Below, piece by piece: positions 8,335-64,000 of a DNA stretch of 64,000 bases. The DNA lies in the NCBI GenBank assembly GCA_902782305.1, contig CACZMV010000004.1, positions 105,997 to 169,996 on the forward strand, read 5' to 3'. Each line of letters starts with the position of its first letter. The first letter of the stretch is position 1. This DNA comes from an uncultured Prevotellaceae bacterium (GTDB lineage Bacteria > Bacteroidota > Bacteroidia > Bacteroidales > Bacteroidaceae). The notes under the pieces were generated by a model. That model made no database searches, was not told where the DNA came from, and saw only the letters and a program-made list of their open reading frames with translations. The translations under genes and the position numbers were made by a program.

Positions 8335-11300
8335 ATGAAACGACTGACTTTATTATTGCTATTAGTAGTTAGCTGTTGGCAAGGAGCGATTGCTGACACC
8401 ACAAAACCCTGGACTTTCTGGTACTGGATGTATGGTGCCGTATCAGAACAAGGTATCAAGGCAGACCTTCAGGCGATGAAGGATGTTGGCTTGGGAGGCT
8501 GTTACCTGATGCCCATTCGCGGTGCTGAGGAACGTCCGGAATACCAGGGTCAGGCCAATGCGATGAGCAATGAGTTCTGGAAAATGATTGACGTTGCCTT
8601 GGAGGAGGCTGACAAACTTGACCTGGAAATGGGTATTCACGTCTGCGATGGTTTCGCACTGGCTGGTGGTCCTTGGATTAAGCCTGAGGAATCGATGCAG
8701 AAGGTAGTCTTCTGCGATACGATTGTTCGCGGAGGGCACCACTATTTCAAGATGCCTAAGCCTGCACATTACAAGGACTATTATAAGGACATTGCAGTTT
8801 ATGCATTCCCTGTGTCCGACCTGAACGTGGAAACGTTTGCCATGAGGTATGCCGACCTCAAGCAGAAGTATTCTCTGAAGGGAGGTCCAAAGGTTACCTA
8901 TTCTCGCGAGGTCACCATCAACGACAAAGGCGTGTTTTGTGCTGACAATCCTTGTTGGATTCAATACGAACTGCAGAAGCCTACCTTGATATTTAATATA
9001 GAGGTAGAACCATCAGGCACCAACTTCCAGTGTCAGCGACTCAAAGTGAAAGCGTCTGACGATGGCGTGATATTCCACGAGGTGAAGCAGTTGACGCCTC
9101 CACGCCAAGGATGGCAGAACACAGACTATAGCACCACCTTCAGCATTCCCCCAACGCGTGCCAAGTATTTCCGTCTGGAGTGGACACCCGAAGGCACAGA
9201 ACCAGGTGCTGAAGACCTGGATGCAGCCAAATGGAAACCCGTATTGCGAGTGAAGGACATCCGACTGGGCACCCTGCCTGCTGTTGACAATTGGGAAGGA
9301 AAAGCAGGACTTGTTTGGCGCATTGCTCCTGACACACCTGCTGAACACATTAACCGCAAACAGCACACCCACGGTTATCAGATGGTAACCACCACGATGA
9401 AGGGCGATATGGTAGAGCTGAACCTTCAGGGTGGAACTTATCGCGTGCTGCGAATGGGATACACATCCACTGGTCACACCAACGCTACTGCTGGTGGTGG
9501 CAAGGGTCTGGAGTGCGACAAGTTCTCGCGCAAGGCTGTCGAGAAGCAGATAGAGAACTGGTTTGGACAATTCATGAAGCGTCCGCACCATGATGTCATC
9601 AAGTATATGCACGTCGATTCCTGGGAGTGTGGCAGTCAGAACTGGACGCCCAATTTCCTGGATGAGTTTGCTCGTCGTCGTGGCTACAACCTCCTGCCCG
9701 TATTGCCTGTATTGGCAGGCGTTCCCATTGACAATGCCGACTTGATACTGCGTCATGTCCGTAAGACGATTGACGAGTTGAAGAACGAGGCCTTCTTTGG
9801 TACTGTTGAAGAGATGGCGCGCAAGTATGATGTTAAGCTTTCGTGCGAGAATGTGGCTCCCACGATGGTTTCCGATGGTATGTCACACTATCGCAACGTA
9901 GATATTCCTATGGGTGAATTCTGGCTGAACTCGCCTACCCACGACAAACCCAACGATATGCTGGATGCCATCAGTGCTGCTCACGTCTATGGCAAGAACA
10001 TTGTGCAGGCCGAGGGATTCACGGAGGTTCGTGGTGTCTGGGACGAGACACCTGCTATGATCAAGCCCTTGCTGGACAGAAACTTTGCACTGGGCATGAA
10101 TCGTCTCTTCTTCCACGTGAACACCCATAACCCTTGGATGAACAAGAAACCAGGAATGACACTAGATGGCATCGGACTCTTCTTCCAGCGCGACCAGACC
10201 TGGTTCCCTGAGGCAAAGGGTCTTGTGAAGTATATCACCCGTTGTCAGGAACTCCTGCAAAAGGGTAAGCCCGTGGTGGATATCGCTGTCTATACGGGCG
10301 AAGAGCTTCCTGCTCGTGCCTTTACCCCAGACAAAGTGGTAAAGATGCTTCCTGGCTTGTTTGGCGACAAGCGCGTGGCTTCTGAGAAAACGCGTCTTGC
10401 CAATGTCGGACAACCGATGGAGGAATCGCCCGTTGGCGTGCGCCACTCAGCTGGAATCCTGGATATGAAGGACTGGATTAATCCACTGCATGGCTATCTG
10501 TACGATTCGATGAACAAGGACGCCCTGCTCACCAAGACCTTTAATTATAAGGTATTAGTCATTCCTGAGGGTACACAGCTTTCAAAAGAAACCAAGGCTC
10601 GCATTGAGCGACTGCAAAAGCAGGGTGTACTGGTGATTGACAGACCTTATCATGGTTCACAACTGCAGGGCATTGCTCCTGATGTGGTATTGCCAGAAGG
10701 CATTGCCTTTAACCATCGCCATGATGATGGCAAGGACATCTACTTCTTCTCGAACCAGACAAATCAGACGCAGACCTTCAGGCCAACCTTCCGTCAGGAC
10801 AGGGCTTGGGGCGTGCTTTACTATCCTCTGTCTGATGATTCCTACGAATATAAAGGCTCTGTCACTTTAGCGCCCTATGAATCCGCATTTGTTTCTCTAG
10901 GAGAAACGGAGGGTTTCTCTAGCAGAAACAAAGTGTTCCCCCAGGAGAAACAGAGTGTTTCTCTTGATGGAAATGGTGGAAACATTTATGATATCACTTT
11001 CAAGGAGAGTAACATCGTTCTGAAGAACCAGCAATTGTTCGATTGGAGCAAGCATCAGAACGACAAGATTCGCTATTTCAGCGGTCATGCTCGCTACAAG
11101 ACAACATGGACGGTAAAGAACAAGAAGGCGCTGAAAAACCGTTCGTGGATAGCATTCCCCAACGTAAAGGACATTGCCCATGTATGGGTGAATGGCAAGG
11201 ATTGTGGTTACGCATGGACAACTCCCTACGAGGTGGAGGTTACTGGAGCCCTGAAGAAGGGTAGCAACAAGATAGAAATCGAGGTGGTGAACACATGGCA

Positions 11301-28854: not shown

Positions 28855-28880
28855 GTGCGAGTCGTGTGTTATTTTATATT

Positions 28881-28964
28881 TCAGGACGTGGAATATATAT
28901 TCCAGGTCGTGGAATATATGTTTCAGGACCTGAAATATAGATTGCAAAGCGTGGGATGGAAATT
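28881..28964 (+). repeat. Palindromic array with 21-bp period
   Basis: Units start at 28881, 28902, 28923 and 28944 (last one diverged). Unit 3 with the base before it holds the palindrome TTTCAGG-A-CCTGAAA; units 1 and 2 have TTCA/TCCA-GGNCG-TGGAA cores with G-T compensations. A single related palindrome lies at about 42655-42680. Confidence 0.75.
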
Positions 28965-42576: not shown

Positions 42577-42718
42577 CTCTTCTTCGTCACAAGTTTTTAC
42601 GTTCCCACACGTGACTCAAAAGGTTTCCTATTTCACCCTATTACACGAGGCAATTCATATTCCAGGGCCTGAAATATTATTTCTCTAAGGAGGAAAAGAA
42701 AATTTCCCTTAATAGAAA

Positions 42719-44026
42719 CTATAGGAATGCGTAGCGACAGATGAATAGTACGGTCAACAGAATGGTGGCCCAATTTATGTTGTTACGCTCGTCCTTGTCT
42801 TTGAGGGTACCTGACAGCAAGTGAATCAACACATAAGATATCACACCCATCAGGATTCCATCGGAGATGCTATAGGTAAGTGGCATGAGCACGATACAGA
42901 TAAAGCAAGGTATAGCCGTTACATAATTGGAGAAATCGACCTTACGGATGTCGTGCATCATCATCACACCCACTAGGATGAGCGCTGCAGCTGTAGCCTG
43001 TGCAGGAATAGCCAGGAACAAAGGGGCGAAGAGCAATGCCACAGCAAAGCAGATGGCTGTGGTAAAGCTAGTCAGTCCTGAGCGTCCACCCACATTCACA
43101 CCAGAGGCACTCTCCACATAAGTGGTTACCGTAGAGGTTCCAAGCATAGCACCAACGGTAGTACCAATGGCATCAGCCATAAAGGCCTGGTTCAGATTCT
43201 TCACATTGCCATTGTCGTCCACCATACCTGCACGATTGGATACTCCGATAAGCGTACCGATGGTATCGAACATATCGATAAACAGGAAGGTAAGTACAAC
43301 TACCGCCATATCGACTGTGAGTATGTTATGCCACTCAAACTGCCAGAAGATGGGACTGATAGAGGGTGGTGTTGACAAGATGCCTGTATAGTTGGTAACG
43401 CCCAAAGGGATGCCCACAATGGTAGTGAACAAGATGCCGATGAGCAACGATCCTGTTACGTTCTTCACCAACAATGCAGCCGTAATCAATATGCCCATAA
43501 TGCTCAGCAGCACGGCAGGGTCGTGCAGATTGCCCAATGTGATGAACGTTGATTCCGACGAGGTGACGATACCAGCTCCCTTCAGACCCACAAAGGCGAT
43601 AAAGAGTCCGATGCCAGGACTGATGGCGCGACGCAATACCAAAGGTATGGCATTAACAATATATTGACGCAAGCCCGTAATGGTTAGCAGGATGAATATC
43701 AGACCTTCTATCATCACAGCGGTCAGCGCAAACTGCCATGTATAGCCCATGGTGAGCACGACGGTGAATGCAAAGAAAGCATTCAGACCCATTCCTGGAG
43801 CCAGAGCAAAAGGTAACTTGGCGTAGATAGCCATTACCAACGTAGCCACTACAGCTGAAATACACGTAGTGGTAAACACAGCACCTGCATCCATACCAGT
43901 AGCTGAGAGGATGCTTGGGTTGACGGCCAAAATGTAAGCCATCGTCAAAAAGGTGGTAATACCACCAATCACCTCCTTGCGTAAAGTCATGGTGGAGGCC
44001 TCAAATCCAAAAAGTTTCTTTAACAT
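42719..44026 (-). CDS. NCS2-family purine permease (AzgA/PbuG-like)
   Basis: 435 residues, about 12-13 membrane helices. GGITTFLTMAYILAVNPSIL, GMGLNAFFAFTVV and SASGVNVGGRSGLTSF are family signatures of the AzgA-like adenine/guanine/hypoxanthine transporters, which act as proton symporters in the inner membrane. It starts 10 nt after sufB and ends before a terminator, so it sits inside what is otherwise a suf cluster. No purine riboswitch is visible. Confidence 0.9.
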   Translation of the reverse strand: MLKKLFGFEASTMTLRKEVIGGITTFLTMAYILAVNPSILSATGMDAGAVFTTTCISAVVATLVMAIYAKLPFALAPGMGLNAFFAFTVVLTMGYTWQFALTAVMIEGLIFILLTITGLRQYIVNAIPLVLRRAISPGIGLFIAFVGLKGAGIVTSSESTFITLGNLHDPAVLLSIMGILITAALLVKNVTGSLLIGILFTTIVGIPLGVTNYTGILSTPPSISPIFWQFEWHNILTVDMAVVVLTFLFIDMFDTIGTLIGVSNRAGMVDDNGNVKNLNQAFMADAIGTTVGAMLGTSTVTTYVESASGVNVGGRSGLTSFTTAICFAVALLFAPLFLAIPAQATAAALILVGVMMMHDIRKVDFSNYVTAIPCFICIVLMPLTYSISDGILMGVISYVLIHLLSGTLKDKDERNNINWATILLTVLFICRYAFL

Positions 44027-51255: not shown

Positions 51256-51729
51256 TTATTTAAAGTTCAACAGGTATTTGCAATACTTGATCTCGCTGAT
51301 GGCAAAGGTCTTGTCAACCTCTACCAACTGAGGGCGCTTCTTGCCTTCCACCTGCTGCTTCTCCTTCACGGTAACAACAAACTGAGCACCATCTTCGCTC
51401 ACCTCTTTCAAGAGGCCCTGCACTTTCTGGCCATTCTGTTGTAATACCTCTACCTCCTTACCAACATGGTTGCGATACTGCTGCACCACTTTAAACGGCT
51501 GACCGATACCTGCAGAGCCTACTTCCAGCTCATAGTCGCCCAGTTCCTCACCCAGTTTCTCCTGGAGGAAACGGCTCAGGTCAGCACAATCCTCAATCCA
51601 TACTCCATCAGCATGGTCAATCTCAATTACAATACGATCATCGGGAGTCATCTCGACGTCTACCAAATAGTAGTCGCCTTTCTCCAACCATTCTTCAACT
51701 GCTGTCTTAATGACGTTCTTGTCTATCAT
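51256..51729 (-). CDS. rimP: Ribosome maturation factor RimP
   Basis: 157 residues from ATG 51729. That start is chosen because MIDKNVIKTAVEEWL begins the conserved fold; the longer frame runs through the leader hairpin and promoter. YYLVDVEMTPDDRIVIEIDHADGVWIEDCADLSRFLQEKL and LEVGSAGIGQPF match RimP, with a C-terminal SH3-like domain. It assists 30S subunit maturation. First gene of rimP-nusA-infB. Confidence 0.94.
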   Translation of the reverse strand: MIDKNVIKTAVEEWLEKGDYYLVDVEMTPDDRIVIEIDHADGVWIEDCADLSRFLQEKLGEELGDYELEVGSAGIGQPFKVVQQYRNHVGKEVEVLQQNGQKVQGLLKEVSEDGAQFVVTVKEKQQVEGKKRPQLVEVDKTFAISEIKYCKYLLNFK

Positions 51730-63832: not shown

Positions 63833-63849
63833 GCTATCTCTTCTCGTTT

Positions 63850-63937
63850 TAAGTTAAAAAGTCTGTCCTTACGGACTGCCAGTCCGAACGGGTCGGACTG
63901 AGAGTCCGAAGCCTACGGACTACAAATTTGTATTAGT
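63850..63937 (+). repeat. 22-bp palindromic array downstream of the PL22 gene
   Basis: CGGAC starts units at 63872, 63894 and 63916, with a degenerate unit before them. Unit 1 is CGGACT-GCC-AGTCCG and unit 2 CGGACT-GAG-AGTCCG with flanking T/A pairs. No T-tract follows. The 63938-64000 remainder shows nothing recognisable. Confidence 0.8.
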
Positions 63938-64000
63938 CGGAAAAGAAAATGTCTCTAATAGAATAAGGTACCCTTATTGGGCAATAACCAACCAGTATCG

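Follow-up and report, generated by a model that had tools for sequence, protein, structure and literature searches.

The palindromic array and its host gene

The DNA analysed here (the window; 64,000 nucleotides, G000:C4:105997-169996) belongs to a 2.94-Mb draft genome of 68 contigs, designated G000, and its features are collected in Table 1. A gene encoding a GH106 alpha-L-rhamnosidase-like protein, whose 1033-aa ORF matches the Pfam family Glyco_hydro_106 with an E value of 3.2e-122, contains a period-22 array of three 22-bp units and a decayed fourth (10891-10973), each unit consisting of a 17-bp dyad and a 5-bp spacer. TRF reports a tandem repeat of period 22 at 10890-10964, with 3.4 copies, 75% matches and no indels, and the linker encoded at this site has a period-22 dyad score of 16/18; 30 codon shuffles never exceeded 12, and six other periods never exceeded 14. 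These results confirm the original prediction, made from the DNA letters, that a palindromic, frame-neutral 22-bp array resides in a coding gene. Its description of every unit as a palindrome is exact for unit 1 only; units 2, 3 and the partial unit 4 form 6, 5 and 3 of 7 pairs, the fourth being the most worn. The predicted spacing of three units, or 66 bp, between two copies of GTTTCTCT is correct, with the copies at 10891 and 10957, but these positions mark where units 1 and 4 begin and not the borders of an insert. A search of both strands of the window for the 17-mer with up to three mismatches found five matches, four at the array and one at 51555; 100 shuffles averaged 0.14.

Table 1. 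Coordinates of the GH106 gene, its array units and other palindromic features of the window
Feature	Position	Strand	Remarks
GH106 alpha-L-rhamnosidase-like host gene, 1033 aa	8335..11436	+	ORF; Pfam PF17132; C-terminal sugar-binding domains
Unit 1, GTTTCTC-TAG-GAGAAAC	10891..10907	.	17-bp perfect palindrome, 7/7 pairs
Unit 2	10913..10929	.	6/7 pairs
Unit 3	10935..10951	.	5/7 pairs; left arm GTTCCCC tends towards the TTCCC class of relatives
Fourth unit, decayed	10957..10973	.	3/7 pairs
Codons 858-876, predicted low-confidence coil	10906..10962	+	AlphaFold2; between strands 850-856 and 885-889
Intergenic 21-bp palindromic array, different class	28875..28950	.	TATTTCAGGACCTGAAATA
Degenerate palindromic stretch, similar look	42656..42710	.	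Just after minus-strand ORF 42719-44026; by eye from repeat matches, failed detector
Intergenic array, class AGTCCG-N7-CGGACT	63870..63921	.	About 38 bp past a stop codon

An AlphaFold2 model of the GH106 protein, built on a 12-sequence alignment and of modest quality (mean pLDDT 62.4), places the array in a low-confidence coil between strands, and protein-level selection at this site is therefore probably weak. The enzyme probably gains nothing from the array, which may be tolerated because the encoded linker is floppy. The alternative that the segment is a conserved structural part of GH106 was rejected, since the site is a low-confidence coil and relatives have unrelated residues there.

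Elsewhere in the window, the DNA of the array at 63870..63921 has 18 matches in the genome, itself included. It forms part of a dispersed repeat at 63840-64000 that also carries a TTATTGCCCAATAA palindrome and some copies of which lie at contig ends; the window itself ends at a contig end. A further 22-bp tandem array of 3.8 copies, in which the dyad is weak, occupies 770-853.

GH106 orthologues share the site and differ in array class

The window gene was compared with 80 named GH106 genes, the titles of which are nearly all Prevotella or Prevotellaceae and most of which are metagenome-assembled. A linker was scored as array-bearing if it formed at least 14 of 18 pairs at period 22 and exceeded 30 codon shuffles. 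By this test 38 of the 81 genes possess a three-unit 22-bp dyad array at the same site; passing genes score 15-18 and failing genes at most 13, and six other periods fall below the period-22 score in every passing gene. The stems at this shared site vary (TTCCC, GTTTC, AGTCCG, CTCC, GTATAC and others), and both arms change together. Genes L002, L003 and L007 (70-74% identity) have the same 42-aa linker without gaps and arrays of their own with the form TTCCC-N5-GGGAA. The GH106 region was found in 132 of 299 genus genomes, and the best 30 loci, including that of the window, show further classes at the same codons. Two genes, L311 and L317, carry five-unit arrays in which frame is kept through one 21-nt step. 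The presence of an array in an isolate, Prevotella sp. tf2-5, argues against an assembly artefact; the isolates tc2-28 and P5-50 are without one.

The array had been taken for a recent insertion of 22 codons into a protein that would otherwise read SAFVSLDGNG continuously. This is contradicted by the gap-free linkers of L002, L003 and L007 and by the absence of a 66-nt gap from all 43 array-less orthologues, whose linkers measure 108-189 nt against the usual 132. The nearest named relatives of the window gene, L250 and L251, and also L285, all fail the array test, so the array in the window gene may be a late arrival. The linkers of L250 and L251 have the same 132 nt as that of the window and by eye appear to hold worn dyads, and the linker of L285 is 15 nt shorter. 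The sole near-clean presence/absence pair is L269 compared with L279/L283 (common long linker), with a difference of 63 nt; L269 lies apart from L279/L283 on a tree of residues 1-840.

Of the 684 pairs tested in the 38 GH106 arrays, 638 are Watson-Crick, a proportion inflated by the fact that these arrays were chosen for their dyads, and each of the 18 pair positions is occupied by three or four Watson-Crick types. Ten pairs of genes with arrays of different class are 27-53% identical within the array and 58-80% identical in the flanks, which indicates that change is largely confined to the array; six close pairs of the same class are 81-99% identical within the array, and in one further same-class pair, L262/L267, the arrays are just 64% alike. 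Classes were assigned by hand under seven labels, among them T 19, G 7, S 5, C 3, K 2 and Y 2. On the GH106 tree, a quick search of residues 1-840 from which recombination may decouple the linker, these labels require 25 changes, whereas shuffling gives 34.7 on average and the minimum is 6. Array classes thus cluster somewhat on the tree, yet switch often.

Arrays in cobB and other host genes

A second gene family exhibits the same arrangement. At cobB, 12 of 30 loci pass the same period-22 dyad test, all of them at one linker, and their stems include ATTCCC, GTTTCC, AGTCCG, GTTTAC and ACGAG. In these arrays, likewise chosen for their dyads, 196 of 216 pairs are Watson-Crick, and the mispairs include three G.T and four A.C. 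The cobB gene of L195 looks array-like by eye and fails the test with a score of 13. In L221 (G000:C47:5811-7012) and L220 (G130), cobB is split into two ORFs at the site at which other species have the array, and the linker is mostly gone.

Among 46 loci derived from pattern matches, the array lies within an ORF of at least 100 aa in 12 and outside such ORFs in 34. The original suggestion was to seek 22-bp arrays in other coding sequences, and other genes do carry them. Two of the 12 in-ORF loci are GH106 genes; the other ten were scanned, and eight have Pfam domains (CobB, GH92 and ABC-F twice each, chorismate-binding and acyltransferase once each) and two have none. The expectation that the unit number is always a multiple of three does not hold: by a tolerant count, which gives 1 for five loci holding two by pattern, seven of the 12 in-ORF arrays have three units, three have two and two have four. 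Unit number also peaks at 3-4 in the 34 arrays outside ORFs, and the three-unit count is therefore not a rule of coding sequence only.

The 22-bp period in genomes of the genus

We sampled 464 kb of G000, 400 kb of five genus relatives and 285 kb of 20 genomes from other families; 20 of the sampled stretches are contig starts and are repeat-rich. A period of 21-22 occurs in 10 of the 22 three-unit direct-repeat arrays from G000 and in 5 of the 11 from the genus set. Dyads are present in three of six direct-repeat arrays of 21 bp and four of nine of 22 bp, compared with 4.5% and 7.1% of shuffled units. A scan for dyads only placed five of seven hits in the G000 and genus sets at 21-22, and Markov controls of two copies per set gave one and two hits with none at 21-22. 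By a combined score, hits at 21-22 numbered 8 of 20 for G000 and 4 of 9 for the genus set, a further one and three fell at 44, and one Markov copy of each set gave no hit. The other-family sample contained no array at 21-22; 23-bp arrays occur in one of its genomes, G053, where two with a TCACAAGTTTGTCAG-like unit lie at L115:8230-8303 and 9645-9762.

Pattern searches of 120 genus genomes, with the period left free from 17 to 47, found TTCCC pairs in 32 of them and GTTTC pairs in 20, with up to 72 and 117 matching pairs, respectively, in one genome, nearly all at a period of 22 or 44. Hand counts of the plus-strand places displayed gave 72 of 76 at 22 and four at 44 for TTCCC, and 61 of 76 at 22, 13 at 44, one at 21 and one at 42 for GTTTC. 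A reversed-pattern control was empty in 120/120 genomes for TTCCC and 117/120 for GTTTC. In the wider family, the TTCCC array occurs in five of 201 genomes, in two of 30 genera. The prediction of a process that works in 22-bp steps agrees with these period-22 arrays in other genes as well. A period that ignores codons, and that is found within and between genes, points to a ruler at the level of DNA, near two helical turns.

Some arrays closely follow a stop codon and others lie between divergent genes, and several classes coexist within one genome, as in G000 and G121. The class found in the GH106 gene of G000 has one further site in that genome by DNA search, with four units just past the stop codon of a gene that by eye reads as a putative pectate-lyase-like gene. 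In G191, two period-22 arrays of different class stand side by side upstream of a putative sigma factor ORF (L098:11176-11385). Pairs of long palindromes like AGTGATTAGGNCCTAATCACT occur with 44-bp spacing at L082:3258-3322 and L083:15935-15995, both in G024.

Copies resemble one another within genomes and clades

Loops and spacers are more alike within genomes than between them. The values are 0.88 vs 0.78 for loops and 0.71 vs 0.60 for spacers among TTCCC loci, and 0.81 vs 0.47 and 0.81 vs 0.46 among GTTTC loci, with 0 of 5000 permutations reaching the observed difference in each case. These figures concern part of the places displayed: 36 TTCCC loci of seven genomes, with at most two pairs per locus and without the 44-bp places (including all three of G080), and 31 GTTTC loci of six genomes, without ten genomes that have a single pair or 44/42/21-bp places and without G121 C54, C76 and C85 and G096 C61. 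Two G031 loci in the permutation set are identical.

The GH106 array of G202 has matches at three other places in G202 and none in 13 other genomes, and that of G119 has an odd middle unit, TTTGTCGGTAGGAAA, in common with two other loci. The best non-self matches of the G265 array lie in G107 (91%) and G221 (90%), its own other copies are 83-85% alike, and four more genomes match. Since G107 and G221 themselves have a GTTTC-kind array in GH106, these near copies of the G265 GH106 array sit elsewhere in their genomes. Copies are therefore common to a clade and not to one genome only, and the classes seem to form a pool held by the clade; the comparisons rest on one genome per species.

Y1 transposases as candidate movers

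Profile-search matches were hand-picked by ORF length and profile range to give 25 Y1 (RAYT-like) transposases, of which 20 were fetched. All 20 contain YIHQNP, and 18 contain NH[VIL]H, the other two having NHFH; both YIHQNP and NH[VIL]H are given as motifs of the Bacteroidetes TnpAREP subclass 2.6 in sections of a published classification (PMC6006769). The proteins studied here are 251-298 aa long, and a table in that source lists 179 aa for the subclass (PMC6006769). The Y1 protein of G000 matches NCBIfam REP_Tyr_transpos below the cut-off. Arrays are present in 21 of 25 RAYT-like genomes and the gene in 21 of 42 array genomes (Fisher 1.9e-8, uncorrected for kinship and with the 25 hand-picked).

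This co-occurrence suggests a RAYT as the mover of the arrays, a candidate that we did not adopt, as the displayed flanks of the gene carry other palindromes. At four displayed Y1 loci, GGGGACAGG palindromes lie on both sides of the gene in L230, L236 and L238, and a GGGGTCGGTT palindrome is present in L234. When flanks of up to 350 bp were scored, 38 in number (2 of 40 being too short) and with no null, L241 reached 17/18, two reached 14 and the rest at most 13. Other arrays lie 299-691 bp from the Y1 gene in L236, L241 and L246. G118, G035 and G020 have 55, 47 and 14 array matches with no Y1 gene among the matches listed. The other palindromes in Y1 flanks, together with array-rich G118 and G035, make the Y1 transposase a candidate and not the answer. 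In G000, a Y1 gene is situated between GGGGACAGGTACCTG palindromes (L230:2288-3360, G000:C17).

Origin and turnover of the arrays

We propose, at odds slightly better than even (about 0.52), that the window array belongs to a dispersed, REP/RPE-like family of palindromic DNA in rumen Prevotella that is spaced by a 22-bp ruler, is tolerated in a flexible linker and is overwritten in place. Its members would consist of dyads 15-19 bp long that recur every 22 bp, close to two helical turns, usually in 3-4 units, and would lie between genes and in flexible protein linkers, where 3 x 22 bp is frame-neutral. Classes may spread by copying onto existing arrays, through gene conversion, hairpin-templated strand switching or a nuclease acting on ssDNA, and a resident array would then be overwritten in 22-bp units instead of being inserted anew. 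Against this proposal stand the G265 matches in sister genomes, the 64% likeness of the same-class pair L262/L267, the lack of a passing array in L250, L251 and L285 and the different palindromes beside the Y1 genes; the comparisons revealed no copying event.

Several other explanations were weighed against this proposal. Hairpin-guided strand switching, for which quasi-palindrome correction of short dyads is a known precedent, could together with slippage keep every array uniform and palindromic where it stands, without function and without any exchange among loci. The joint change of the two arms, the likeness of units within an array and the G265 array, which is no closer to copies in its own genome than to those in sister genomes, all fit such local self-templating. 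We nevertheless judge it to have a minority chance, since loops and spacers are on average common to the loci of one genome, the G119 GH106 array and two other loci have the same odd middle unit, and the sharpness of the 22-bp period across arrays of unrelated sequence calls for a ruler. Somewhat less probable is a dimeric DNA-binding protein, stacked along a single face of the helix at two-turn intervals, whose specificity drifts between species, with the sites following. Palindromic sites at 21-22 bp, classes that can be genome-specific and the 34 of 46 loci outside ORFs would be expected of binding sites, and likeness within genomes could reflect such a protein instead of copying; the coexistence of several classes in G000 and in G121, the sharing of spacers and loops as well as stems, and the 12 of 46 loci within ORFs speak against it.

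Two further explanations appear very improbable. Serial hairpins in the transcript, part of the original prediction, would act on mRNA stability or translation, consistent with the covarying stems and with arrays closely after stop codons. Mispairs nevertheless number seven G.T and 14 A.C among the 684 GH106 pairs, and at cobB, too, G.T is not the commoner, which gives no indication of selection on sense RNA and no support for such hairpins; moreover, the window has no Rfam match at gathering scores, and arrays also lie between divergent genes. An in-frame insertion or expansion confined to recent time in the window's strain would account for L250, L251 and L285 and recalls the one 63-nt pair elsewhere, but it is at odds with the missing 66-nt gap in the array-less orthologues and with 37 other orthologues that have arrays at the same site. 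The original prediction was right about the array and its frame neutrality and missed the fixed address and the swappable letters.

Returning to the overwritten family, a stronger form of the proposal, which we hold to be doubtful, is that Prevotella harbour a putative active process, either a machine or a strand-switching pathway, with a 22-bp, two-turn ruler. It would replace palindromic arrays at fixed chromosomal addresses, some of them inside protein genes, and would draw on a pool of classes kept by the genome or clade to rewrite the arrays together with their encoded peptides. If true, this would represent concerted evolution of very short dispersed bacterial repeats in which no new sites are invaded. 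Drift is the usual course for orthologous proteins, but in this case some 22 linker residues would be replaced wholesale between close species because the symmetry of the DNA, and not the function of the protein, rules the site. A fixed address with a swappable sequence would serve as a natural archive of the way in which very short palindromes are copied, a question for REP-like repeats, and the 22-bp ruler would offer a handle towards the copying enzyme. Linker differences in such families may also carry no information on enzyme evolution, a warning for comparisons of this kind.

Comparison with known repeat systems

In the open-access literature searched, no title or abstract opening concerned 22-bp palindrome arrays in Prevotella. 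E. coli BIMEs are regular palindromes, and plasmid iterons are helix-phased direct repeats near 22 bp that lie next to a gene for a replication initiator. The window array differs from both in period and class behaviour, and it lies inside a glycoside hydrolase gene without an origin or replication gene. CRISPR arrays are accompanied by cas genes and have unique spacers of at least 25 bp, whereas the spacers here are 5-7 bp.

REP sequences are described, in passages of one report, as short palindromes in many copies that are mostly intergenic and sometimes within genes (PMC3733652). The present arrays resemble the REP/RAYT system, with its 20-40-bp palindromes, in their high copy number and their predominance outside ORFs. 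Y1 genes with the subclass 2.6 motif YIHQNP are present too, and tend to occur in the same genomes as arrays when kinship is left uncorrected. They differ in their strict head-to-tail 22-bp ruler, in the use of one gene site by different classes and in Y1 genes that are flanked by other palindromes and not by the array repeat. Judged by eye and uncounted, the displayed TTCCC-class units and the 7-nt spacers between them show no constant GTAG or CGTC tag of the kind expected at one end of a REP palindrome; GTAG does occur within the stem-loop of some GTTTC units. Rickettsia palindromic elements (RPE), according to portions of another report, form families of palindromic repeats of about 150 bp in frame within unrelated protein genes (PMC10969869). 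Arrays in frame in GH106, CobB, GH92, ABC-F, chorismate-binding and acyltransferase genes recall them, but here the elements are tandem 3 x 22-bp dyads, the linker is overwritten and not cleanly lengthened, and clean insertion relative to homologues was not encountered (66-nt gap 0/43, one 63-nt pair). The BrickBuilt elements of Porphyromonas gingivalis, as treated in parts of a third report, are tandem short repeats carried by a MITE in a Bacteroidales genome (PMC4596501). They are tandem as here and, unlike the arrays here, MITE-borne, and 'palindrom' is absent from the main text of that source (PMC4596501). The 22-bp repeats of P. gingivalis were also considered and set aside, '22-bp' and 'DR22' being absent from the main text of PMC5771137 and nothing alike appearing in the available parts of PMC4596501. 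The window array is a real, unusual member of the REP/RPE-like kind.

Arrays in viral contigs

Searches with three array-bearing viral loci gave no near match to annotated phages, and none of four ORFs taken from two of these loci had a PHROG match. TTCCC pairs at 22 bp were observed in 25 viral contig stretches (L345-L369), and in one of these the array lies within an 83-aa ORF reading NSHLGNYLFPAWEQKIPTLGTK (L350:5514-5765).
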